DNA of 36,256 nt from positions 1 to 36,256 of the forward strand of contig JAOPYM010000451.1 in assembly GCA_025964615.1 (NCBI GenBank). Direction: 5' to 3'. Position numbers and translations under genes: made by a program. The notes below the pieces were generated by a model, which was not told where the DNA came from, searched no databases, and saw only the letters and a program-made list of their open reading frames with translations. Each line of letters starts with the position of its first letter. The stretch's first letter is position 1. Positions 4,891 to 36,256 of the stretch are shown here, one piece after another. The stretch comes from Actinomycetes bacterium. GTDB taxonomy: Bacteria; Actinomycetota; Actinomycetes; Streptosporangiales; Streptosporangiaceae.

Positions 4891-4956
4891 CCGTTGACTC
4901 GTGGCGTTTGCCGCACCGCTTACCAGAACAGTGCGGGAAACGCCACCAGTCAACGG
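4891..4956. repeat. Dispersed palindromic element, copy 1 (intergenic)
   Basis: CCGTTGACTCGTGGCGTTTGCCGCAC-CGCTTACCAGAACA-GTGCGGGAAACGCCACCAGTCAACGG; arms pair at 24 of 26 positions. Confidence 0.97.
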
Positions 4957-21794: not shown

Positions 21795-23065
21795 TGGACG
21801 CGATCGACGTCATCGTCACCAAGAGGGACGGCGGTGAGCTGTCCGGGGAGCAGATCGCCTGGGTGGTCGACGCGTACACCCACGGCAATGTGGCCGAGGA
21901 GCAGATGTCGGCGCTGGCCATGGCCATCCTGCTCAACGGGATGAACCGGCGCGAGATCTCCGCCTGGACCGAGGCGATGATCGAGTCGGGATCCCGGATG
22001 GACTGGTCGGCCCTGGACCGCATGACCACCGACAAGCACTCCACCGGAGGTGTCGGCGACAAGATCACGCTGCCGCTCGCGCCGCTCGTCGCCGCGTGCG
22101 GGGCGGCCGTGCCGCAGCTGTCCGGACGCGGGCTCGGCCACACCGGCGGCACCCTCGACAAGCTGGAGTCCATCCCGGGCTGGCGGGCCTCGCTGTCGGC
22201 CGCCGAGATGCTGGACGTGCTGCGCGCCACGGGCGCGGTGGTCTGCGCGGCGGGCGCCGGCCTGGCCCCCGCGGACCGCAAGCTGTACGCGCTGCGCGAC
22301 GTCACAGGCACGGTCGAGTCGATCCCGCTGATCGCTTCGTCGATCATGTCCAAGAAGATCGCCGAGGGGACGTCGGCCCTGGTCCTGGATGTCAAGACGG
22401 GTTCCGGGGCCTTCATGAAGACCGTGGAGCGGGCCCGTGAGCTGGCCGCGACCATGGTCGACATCGGCAGGGACCACGGAGTACGGACCGTCGCGCTGCT
22501 GACCGCCATGGACCGGCCGCTCGGCCGCGCGGTCGGCAACGCCGTCGAGGTCACCGAGTCCGTCGAGGTCCTCGCCGGGGGCGGCCCTGCGGACGTCGTC
22601 GAGCTGACCGTGGCGCTGGCCCGTGAGATGCTCGCCGCCGCAGACCTGCCGGGGACGAAGGACCCGGCCGACGCGCTGCGGGACGGCAGCGCCATGGACG
22701 TCTGGCGGAAGATGATCTCAGCCCAGGGCGGAGATCCCTCCGCCGCGCTGCCGGTGGCGCGCGAGTCGCATGTGCTGACGGCCCCCGCGACCGGCGTCCT
22801 GTCCACACTGGACGCCTACGGGGTCGGGCTCGCCGCCTGGCGCCTGGGCGCGGGACGGGCCCGCAAGGAGGACCCGGTCTCCTTCGGCGCCGGCATCATC
22901 TGCCACGCCAAGCCCGGCGACCACGTCACAGCGGGCACCCCCCTCCTGACCCTGTACGCAGACGACCCGGCCCGCTTCGACCGCGCCCTCGAAGCCCTCA
23001 CCCCCGCCATCAAGATCGGCGGCGCCCCCGATCTCCTCCCGCTCATCATCGACCGCCTCCGTTGA
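21794..23065 (+). CDS. deoA: Thymidine phosphorylase
   Basis: MDAIDVIVTKRDGGELS, TDKHSTGGVGDKI, GRGLGHTGGTLDKLESIPG; TGATG overlap with cdd. Confidence 0.97.
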   Translation: MDAIDVIVTKRDGGELSGEQIAWVVDAYTHGNVAEEQMSALAMAILLNGMNRREISAWTEAMIESGSRMDWSALDRMTTDKHSTGGVGDKITLPLAPLVAACGAAVPQLSGRGLGHTGGTLDKLESIPGWRASLSAAEMLDVLRATGAVVCAAGAGLAPADRKLYALRDVTGTVESIPLIASSIMSKKIAEGTSALVLDVKTGSGAFMKTVERARELAATMVDIGRDHGVRTVALLTAMDRPLGRAVGNAVEVTESVEVLAGGGPADVVELTVALAREMLAAADLPGTKDPADALRDGSAMDVWRKMISAQGGDPSAALPVARESHVLTAPATGVLSTLDAYGVGLAAWRLGAGRARKEDPVSFGAGIICHAKPGDHVTAGTPLLTLYADDPARFDRALEALTPAIKIGGAPDLLPLIIDRLR

Positions 23066-23123
23066 CCCGTGGCGTTTCCCGCCCTCTTTCTTCAAACGGT
23101 GCGGGAAACGCCACGGGTCAACG
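23060..23123. repeat. Dispersed palindromic element, copy 2 (contains the deoA stop codon)
   Basis: CGTTGACCCGTGGCGTTTCCCGCCC-...-GTGCGGGAAACGCCACGGGTCAACG; compensatory T-A to C-G change versus other copies. Confidence 0.97.
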
Positions 23124-24823: not shown

Positions 24824-26764
24824 TCAGGCGAGAGCGAGCAGCTCGGCGAGGGCGGATTTGAGCGCGGCGAGATCCGAGGCCGCCTGGGCGCGGGTCTCGG
24901 CGACCTCGCCCTGGACCGGGATCATGGTCTCCAGATAGCACTTCAGCTTGGGCTCGGTCCCCGAGGGCCTGATCACCACCCTCGTGTCGGAAGAGGCCAA
25001 TCCCCCGGACTGGGAGTCACCGCCATTGGTGAGGGCCGCACCGTCACCGGAGAGATCGGCAGGTCGCCGGGGCGCGAGGCGAAGGCGCAGGCCCTCGGTG
25101 GGGGGTAGGCCGCCGGGCCCGTCGGCCAGGTCCTCGAACAGGACGACCCGCCGCCCGCCGAGCTCCGCGGGTGGATCGGCGCGCAGCCGGGTCATCGCGT
25201 CGGTGATCAGCGTGGGATCGTCTACCCGTACCGACAGCTGGGCCGTCGCATGCAGGCCGTACCGGCGGGCCTGGTCGTCGAGCAGGTCCAGAAGGGTCAG
25301 GCCTTCCTGCGCCGCCTCGGTCGCGAGCGCCGTGATCGCCAATGCCGCGCCGATCCCGTCCTTGTCCCTGACCGGCACGTGCGGGTTGTCCGGTGCTTCG
25401 GGCACGACCGGTTCGTCGCCCGCGATGCAGTATCCGAGCGCCTCCTCGTACCCGAACACGAACCGCCCGGTGCCCGCCTTCATGATCCACTTGAACCCGG
25501 TGAGCGACTCGGCGAACCGCACCCCATGTGCACGAGCGATCTTGCTCAACAGCGACGAGGACACGATCGTCGTCACCACCAGCCGGTCGTCCCCCCGCGT
25601 CCTCCGCAGCACATGCTCGGCCAGCAGCCCCCCCACCTCATCCCCCGTCAACACCCGCCACTTTTCGTTGAGTCGTGGCGTTTCCCGCACCTGGACCCCC
25701 CCTGAGTGCGGGAAACGCCACGAGTCAACGAGCGGGACGGCGACGGCGAGGCGGTCGGCGTCGGGGTCGTTGGCGATCGCGAGGTCCGCATCGCCGGCCT
25801 CGGCGAGCGCCAGGACCAGGTCCATCGCCCCAGGTTCCTCCGGATTCGGAAAGGCCACGGTCGGGAAGTCGGGATCAGGCCGTACCTGCTCCGCCACCAT
25901 CATCGGAGCCCCGAACCCCGCCGCATCGAACGCCCGCCCCAGCACCCCCGCCCCAACGCCGTGCAACGCCGTATACGCAACCCGCACTCCGTTGACTCGT
26001 GGCGTTTGCCGCCCCTGGACCCCCGCTGGGTGGGGGAAACGCCACGAGTCAACGGTTATGGCGTGGAGGTACGCGTCGGTGATCTGTTGGTCCAGGGGGA
26101 TCCAGGTGTCTGACAGGGGGAGGTGGTCGACTCTGCCGACGGCGTCGATGGCGGCGGAGATCTCGGCGTCGAGCGGCGGGACGATCTGGGCGCCGTCGTG
26201 CCAGTAGATCTTGTAGCCGTTGTCCTGGGGTGGGTTGTGGCTGGCGGTCACCATGACCCCGGCGGACGCGCTCAGGTACCGTACGGCGAAGGCCAGGACC
26301 GGCGTGGGGAGCGGGCCCGGCAGCAGCCATGCGGTCAGCCCGGCTCCGGTGAGTACGGCGGCCGTGTCCAGTGCGAACCGCTCCGACCCGTGCCGGGCGT
26401 CATACCCGATCACCACCCCTCGCGGCCGCTCCGGGCGGTCAGGTGAAGGGCGGTCAGGTGAAGGGCGGTCAGGCGAACGGCGGTCAGGTGAAGGGCGGTC
26501 AGGTGAGGGGTGCTCAGCGAGGAGGCGGGCGGCGAGGCCGGCGGCGGCGCGCATGACGGTGACCCGGTTCATCCGGTTGGGGCCCGCCCCGAGGGCACCT
26601 CGGAGGCCTGCGGTGCCGAATTCCAGCTTCGTGGCGAACCGCTCCGCCAGCGCAGCCTCCGCTGCGGAGGTTGCGGAGGCGAGGAGGGCGCGGAGTTCGG
26701 CGCGGGTGACGGGGTCGGGGTCCTGGGCCAGCCACGCCTCCGCCTGGTCTCGGTAGGTGTTCAC
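24824..26764 (-). CDS. Phospho-sugar mutase (PGM2/PmmB type; phosphoglucomutase, phosphomannomutase or phosphopentomutase) carrying two in-frame palindromic-element inserts and a (PSPDR)n tract
   Basis: FGTAGLRGALGAGPNRMN, VTASHNPPQDNGYKIYWHDGAQI, YTALHGVGAGVLG, NDPDADRLAVAVP, WRVLTGDEVGGLL, FGYEEALGYC, RPSGTEPKLKCYLE. Confidence 0.95.
   Translation of the reverse strand: MNTYRDQAEAWLAQDPDPVTRAELRALLASATSAAEAALAERFATKLEFGTAGLRGALGAGPNRMNRVTVMRAAAGLAARLLAEHPSPDRPSPDRRSPDRPSPDRPSPDRPERPRGVVIGYDARHGSERFALDTAAVLTGAGLTAWLLPGPLPTPVLAFAVRYLSASAGVMVTASHNPPQDNGYKIYWHDGAQIVPPLDAEISAAIDAVGRVDHLPLSDTWIPLDQQITDAYLHAITVDSWRFPHPAGVQGRQTPRVNGVRVAYTALHGVGAGVLGRAFDAAGFGAPMMVAEQVRPDPDFPTVAFPNPEEPGAMDLVLALAEAGDADLAIANDPDADRLAVAVPLVDSWRFPHSGGVQVRETPRLNEKWRVLTGDEVGGLLAEHVLRRTRGDDRLVVTTIVSSSLLSKIARAHGVRFAESLTGFKWIMKAGTGRFVFGYEEALGYCIAGDEPVVPEAPDNPHVPVRDKDGIGAALAITALATEAAQEGLTLLDLLDDQARRYGLHATAQLSVRVDDPTLITDAMTRLRADPPAELGGRRVVLFEDLADGPGGLPPTEGLRLRLAPRRPADLSGDGAALTNGGDSQSGGLASSDTRVVIRPSGTEPKLKCYLETMIPVQGEVAETRAQAASDLAALKSALAELLALA
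25666..25730. repeat. Dispersed palindromic element, copy 3 (in frame inside the mutase gene)
   Basis: CGTTGAGTCGTGGCGTTTCCCGCAC-CTGGACCCCCCCTGA-GTGCGGGAAACGCCACGAGTCAACG; encodes VDSWRFPHSGGVQVRETPRLNE on the minus strand. Confidence 0.98.
25989..26055. repeat. Dispersed palindromic element, copy 4 (in frame inside the mutase gene)
   Basis: CCGTTGACTCGTGGCGTTTGCCGCCCCTGGACCCCCGCTGGGTGGGGGAAACGCCACGAGTCAACGG; encodes VDSWRFPHPAGVQGRQTPRVNG on the minus strand. Confidence 0.98.
26436..26510. repeat. Five tandem 15-bp repeats (cggtcaggtgaaggg) encoding (PSPDR)n in the mutase
   Basis: Direct reading; units at 26436, 26451, 26466, 26481, 26496. Confidence 0.95.
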
Positions 26765-36201: not shown

Positions 36202-36256
36202 CCGTTGACTCGTGGCGTTTCCCGCACCGTTTCGCGTTTCGGTGCGGGAAACGCCA
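36202..36256. repeat. Dispersed palindromic element, copy 5 (truncated by window end)
   Basis: CCGTTGACTCGTGGCGTTTCCCGCACCGTTTCGCGTTTCGGTGCGGGAAACGCCA. Confidence 0.96.

Follow-up and report, generated by a model that had tools for sequence, protein, structure and literature searches.

A lineage-specific palindromic repeat of high copy number, probably translated within a mutase gene of an actinobacterium

We observed that a phosphoglucomutase/phosphomannomutase-family gene carries two palindromes within its open reading frame. The gene lies in the window (the whole 36,256-nucleotide contig that was analysed, JAOPYM010000451.1, from a member of the Streptosporangiaceae). The two segments belong, with good probability, to a palindromic repeat that is specific to this lineage, is present in high copy number and acts like the REP and RPE elements of other bacteria, and whose copies in ORFs are translated and tolerated.

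Results

Two palindromes in the mutase reading frame

The mutase gene (24824..26764, minus strand) has an open frame of 646 aa in which Pfam PGM_PMM domains I-IV were all matched. The active-site and metal-loop motifs ASHNP, DPDADR, GFKWI and SGTEPK are intact, and belong to the invariant columns of the alignment with homologues. Each palindrome is 65 bp long and consists of two conserved 25-nt arms and a 15-nt loop. The palindrome at 25666..25730 (palindromes are given here without a strand) has the loop CTGGACCCCCCCTGA and encodes VDSWRFPHSGGVQVRETPRLNE (codons 25664-25729, residues 346-367), while the one at 25990..26054 has the loop CTGGACCCCCGCTGG and encodes VDSWRFPHPAGVQGRQTPRVNG (codons 25988-26053, residues 238-259). 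Both folded much more stably than shuffled sequences (z -7 to -10). An initial annotation of this DNA had reported two palindromes in frame in one mutase ORF, with conserved family motifs on both sides and one insert after DPDADR, and the open frame, the positions of the peptides and the alignment all confirm this. It had also called the two peptides near-identical; both are indeed 22 aa long, but with 16/22 residues identical that wording was generous.

When we compared the protein with 80 mutase homologues (from Streptosporangium, Actinomadura, Nonomuraea, Microbispora, Actinoallomurus and others), as the annotation had proposed, both 22-aa segments were absent from 80/80. At site 1 (238-259), the 22 residues stand where homologues have about 9 (e.g. 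RLPVGAERD), a net gain of about 13. At site 2 (346-367), which directly follows the DPDADR metal loop and has intact motifs on either side, homologues have 4-8 residues (e.g. PDGG or TAHEAGGR), and the net gain is 14 to 18. To judge from the residues that homologues have at both sites, each repeat took the place of some native loop residues. The earlier description of each palindrome as adding 22 aa is correct for the segments themselves, but not as a pure addition, since about 9 native residues (site 1) and about 4-8 (site 2) were replaced.

An AlphaFold model of the mutase (31-sequence alignment) gave a pLDDT of 79 and a pTM of 0.81 overall, with residues 244-257 and 348-365 having a pLDDT < 50 and no secondary structure. 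Both inserts are predicted to be disordered loops in an otherwise confident structure, in agreement with the loop placement expected in the annotation.

We also noted that the mutase gene contains, in its N-terminal part, a tandem repeat of 15 bp (window positions 26430-26517), which encodes repeated SPDRP units that are not in homologues. The mutase homologue in L034 shows another repeat expansion where the SPDRP units lie, together with a long insertion in the site-2 loop.

A dispersed family with a constant arm and a variable loop

The host genome comprises 6.07 Mb in 614 contigs (99% complete), the window being one of these. The window contains 9 occurrences of the arm motif, where 0.01 would be expected, and the whole genome contains 473, where a reversed control gave 0. 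Allowing up to 3 core mismatches, the family has about 268 copies in the genome, of which 259 have a 14-nt loop and 9 a 15-nt loop. An element is carried by 32/207 examined contig ends, and one copy of the window (36203..36256) is truncated by the contig end, with the assembly break within the repeat. As the assembly breaks at repeats, the copy number is a lower bound.

A direct reading of 1.46 Mb, which showed about half of the copies in their context, gave both the consensus and the genomic surroundings. The consensus is the perfect palindrome CGTTGACTCGTGGCGTTTCCCGCACCGTTTCGCGAAACGGTGCGGGAAACGCCACGAGTCAACG, and both its ends read CGTTGA..TCAACG. The arms are nearly invariant; the loop is variable at every position and constant in length in nearly all copies. 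Forms of 76 and 88 bp arise where an inserted 12-nt block (of the GCTTCTGTTGGA or TGCCTTTGTTGG type) lies in one outer arm or in both; the 88-bp long-arm forms were seen on L127 (5290-5377 and 15729-15816), L203 (432-519) and L179 (2270-2357). Some copies have identical loops but differ in their outer arms, which looks like a reassortment of arms and loops.

A search of 346 other genomes of the order, mostly from the same family and none from the same genus, found no copy, nor did searches of phage and plasmid records and of viral contigs. Among described RNA families, no Rfam model matched the repeat above the gathering score.

Inheritance of the loop and spread of the copies

Loop pairs that are one change apart numbered 65, against 4.5 expected. 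This excess of near-identical pairs indicates that copying includes the loop, and it rules out that the loop is made anew at every insertion. The loops of the two mutase copies differ at 2/15 positions and are more alike than those of any other pair of 15-nt-loop copies, which fits the shared origin that the annotation had suggested for them from the sequence. A relaxed scan detected almost no decayed old copies.

The arms showed no covariation (2046 pairs observed vs 2047 in shuffles), and pairing in the loop was slightly under chance (263 vs 276). These results speak against structural selection on the stem, and the conserved feature is the arm sequence and not demonstrably the hairpin. A fixed arm sequence would be expected both from recent spread and from recognition by a protein.

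Target duplication was not detected around 130 copies, where direct flank repeats of 2-9 nt were at the chance level. The only three Y1_Tnp genes found were all of the IS200/IS605 type, beside TnpB. There were no repeat arms near these Y1 transposase genes and no arm similarity in the IS copies, so that IS605 can be ruled out as the donor. A parent insertion sequence was sought through arms lacking a nearby partner, and 0 of these were found in the 1.46 Mb read of the 6.07-Mb genome. The copies may have spread by a process in which part of the target sequence is overwritten and no target duplication arises, with the loop being inherited on copying but changing much faster than the arms. The three IS200/IS605-type copies (L240, L241 and L242, each with TnpA beside TnpB) are 88-90% identical, and one TnpA is broken by a TGA.

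Copies with a 14-nt loop at gene ends

The copies with a 14-nt loop are for the most part located outside genes. With gene ends and coding calls taken from a home-made, simple codon-usage gene finder, 71% of the 119 non-ORF copies lie ≤12 nt from a gene 3' end, compared with 7.8% of noncoding positions. In 41/119 of them the repeat supplies the stop codon (CGT TGA). The window contains an example in the 64-bp copy with a 14-nt loop (23060..23123) between deoA and an adenosine deaminase gene, whose CGT TGA forms the last codon and stop of deoA. The homologues of deoA end in ..PLIIDRxTA*, whereas the protein in the window ends in ..PLIIDRLR*, with the final R and the stop coming from the repeat. 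Another 64-bp copy with a 14-nt loop (4892..4955) is intergenic, 27 nt past a predicted gene end. Convergent gaps were enriched for copies (30/90 vs 97/706) and divergent gaps depleted, and many copies lie between co-directional genes just 10-30 nt apart.

The tight placement at stop codons, the bias towards convergent gaps, and a loop length that is fixed despite the variable sequence (as for a paired binding site) would also suit host-selected sites, i.e. terminators, mRNA 3' stabilisers or protein-binding sites that are not mobile and of which the ORF copies are strays. We consider this unlikely, although it is the alternative that deserves most weight. The hairpin is followed by a purine-rich flank and not by a T tract (in the 6 nt after the repeat, T reaches at most about a quarter at any position), unlike in an intrinsic terminator, and a strong terminator would be harmful between closely spaced co-directional genes. 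The missing T tract and the copies within tight operons rule out a terminator as the sole explanation. The lack of covariation in the arms, and the absence of the repeat from every relative searched (the 346 genomes of the order), also speak against host-selected sites.

Copies inside open reading frames

All nine 15-nt-loop copies lie inside ORFs, as compared with 5/124 other copies (Fisher p = 7e-11), which rules out chance as the cause. They are 65 bp long, in frame and free of stops, with related G-rich loops, and their hosts are the mutase (twice), a ketosynthase-type PKS, a GAP1-domain protein, AtuA, hydantoinase A, a MocR regulator, an AMP-dependent ligase and an MptB-like mannosyltransferase. 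Six of the nine are read as VDSWRFPH..VRETPRVN and three as LTRGVSRT..CGKRHEST; the genome search suggested in the annotation has yielded further proteins carrying the same peptide. The five other ORF copies, with 14- or 26-nt loops, are in frame in NadC, a PKS, a UvrD-like helicase, and a methyltransferase-like and a glycosyltransferase-like protein (these last two named by eye from the sequence). Because the gene calls are simple and about half of the copies were read in context, the number of ORF copies in the 14-nt class is an undercount.

All 14 ORF copies (of lengths 64, 65, 76 and 88) keep one open frame through the repeat, and the one arm frame of three that contains a TGA is never used in them. 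As these lengths are not multiples of three, the preserved frame suggests that the copies are translated and not bypassed or excised. Removal before or during translation, by RNA excision or by ribosome bypassing as with the yeast mitochondrial byp elements, would add no peptide. The hairpins are highly stable, and bypassed palindromes are known in Magnusiomyces (PMC6649704). However, skipping needs neither a kept frame nor freedom from stops, nor would it require that the TGA-bearing frame be avoided, and we regard removal as very improbable. An artefact of short-read assembly that misplaced repeats into genes might be suspected from the 614 contigs and the elements at 32 of the contig ends examined, but can practically be dismissed, since each aligned gene has the same protein in the same frame on both sides of the repeat (a false join would fuse unrelated genes) and each of the nine 15-nt-loop copies has its own distinct loop.

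On the reading that we favour, the ORF copies would be transcribed and translated straight through. Alignments of the MocR regulator, AtuA, the AMP-ligase, NadC and the MptB-like mannosyltransferase place the peptide in a linker or loop of variable length, and relatives are without it. Part of the native linker was lost in each aligned insertion; the total linker length in MocR and AtuA is about that of relatives, and NadC has a net gain of about 13 residues. In the PKS, hydantoinase and GAP1 genes, the repeat lies between or beside domains. The loops of the ORF copies encode mainly G, P, D, S, Q and R, a composition that suits exposed turns and may result from protein-level selection. That the copies persist would be explained by the turn-rich, hydrophilic 22-aa peptide sitting in surface loops or inter-domain linkers and leaving the enzyme functional.

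Discussion

The best-known coding palindromes are those of Rickettsia, and there neither their origin nor their mobility has been explained. RPEs insert in frame in Rickettsia, and only some RPE families do so (PMC10969869). Like the present family, they are palindromes found in frame in unrelated genes, with a recurring peptide and with some families specialised for ORFs, and they are tolerated by host proteins. They differ in being about 150 bp long and in belonging to intracellular Rickettsia (PMC10969869), whereas the repeats described here measure 64-65 bp (76/88 bp in the long-arm forms), occur in a GC-rich actinobacterium, and have a hypervariable loop of fixed length. The features of the RPE type that we found are in-frame palindromes dispersed over unrelated genes (9/9 plus 5 others), their absence from orthologues and, in the mutase, their predicted location in disordered loops. 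The parallel drawn in the annotation holds by analogy, as a likeness of behaviour, and as the host is an actinobacterium we claim no RPE membership; coding palindromes are, however, not limited to Rickettsia and Wolbachia, the two groups it had named (PMC3733652, PMC2759123).

Intragenic REPs have been described in several genera, in some cases as two insertions into a single gene (PMC3733652), and enterobacteria are reported to have small mobile repeats within genes (PMC2759123). The GTAG/CGTC REPs resemble the present family in having hundreds of copies at gene 3' ends, in both convergent and co-directional gaps, in having termini that serve as stop codons, and in having some copies in ORFs and some genes hit twice (PMC3733652). 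The survey of these REPs makes no mention of Actinobacteria in its text (PMC3733652). The family shares the 3'-end placement with REPs, but we found neither a GTAG/CGTC tag nor a cognate RAYT gene flanked by repeats; moreover, its elements are longer and almost fully palindromic, and include a separate loop type confined to ORFs. MITEs and the enterobacterial repeat units ERIC/RU are likewise small and non-autonomous, and can become fused to ORFs and alter stop codons (PMC2759123, PMC10969869), but the present family showed no target-site duplication, and no parent insertion sequence was found in the part of the genome read. The bypassed palindromes of Magnusiomyces mitochondria and the coding inverted repeats of Nematomorpha likewise lie in protein-coding genes (PMC6649704), whereas the present family preserves the frame and is scattered mostly outside genes. 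Attachment sites of the attC type were considered and set aside, as the end motifs are oriented the wrong way for them. The family behaves like both REPs and RPEs, and we file it neither as REP (no tag, no RAYT) nor as MITE (no duplication, and no parent found in the 1.46 Mb read).

A more detailed model can be put forward only tentatively. One family would have diverged into two forms that share their arms. The form with a 14-nt loop would stay mainly at gene ends and often serve as the stop codon, and in the form with a 15-nt loop, restricted to ORFs, protein-level selection would hold the loop so that it encodes a tolerated turn. The family would spread without RAYT or target duplication, overwriting the target, with the loop changing and the arms fixed.

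REP-like repeats in frame are already known from several bacteria, some of them doubled in one gene. What is new is an actinobacterial family without the GTAG/CGTC tag, a REP transposase or target duplication, with an ORF-confined loop type beside a gene-end loop type, a fast-changing loop of fixed length, and a 12-nt arm module. With one form found only in ORFs, it represents an independent case of coding palindromes. With this family one can test how a repeat becomes tolerated protein, what restricts one loop type to genes, and by what means such repeats move without RAYT. For annotators it is also a warning, as this genome has at least 14 repeat-derived protein segments and dozens of repeat-derived stop codons.

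Different palindromes were seen downstream of the mutase gene in relatives. In Streptosporangium genomes, one of the GGTCTCATCTGTGAGAGTCTCA / TGAGACTCTCACAGATGAGACC type lies just downstream of the gene (L036, 3029-3093; L043, 3715-3773; L066, 3710-3767; L067, 3697-3750), and is perhaps another gene-end palindrome family. In another Streptosporangiaceae genome, tandem-like palindromes (GGTACTACCAAATTTGGTAGTACC) are found downstream of the mutase (L097, 3598-3652).
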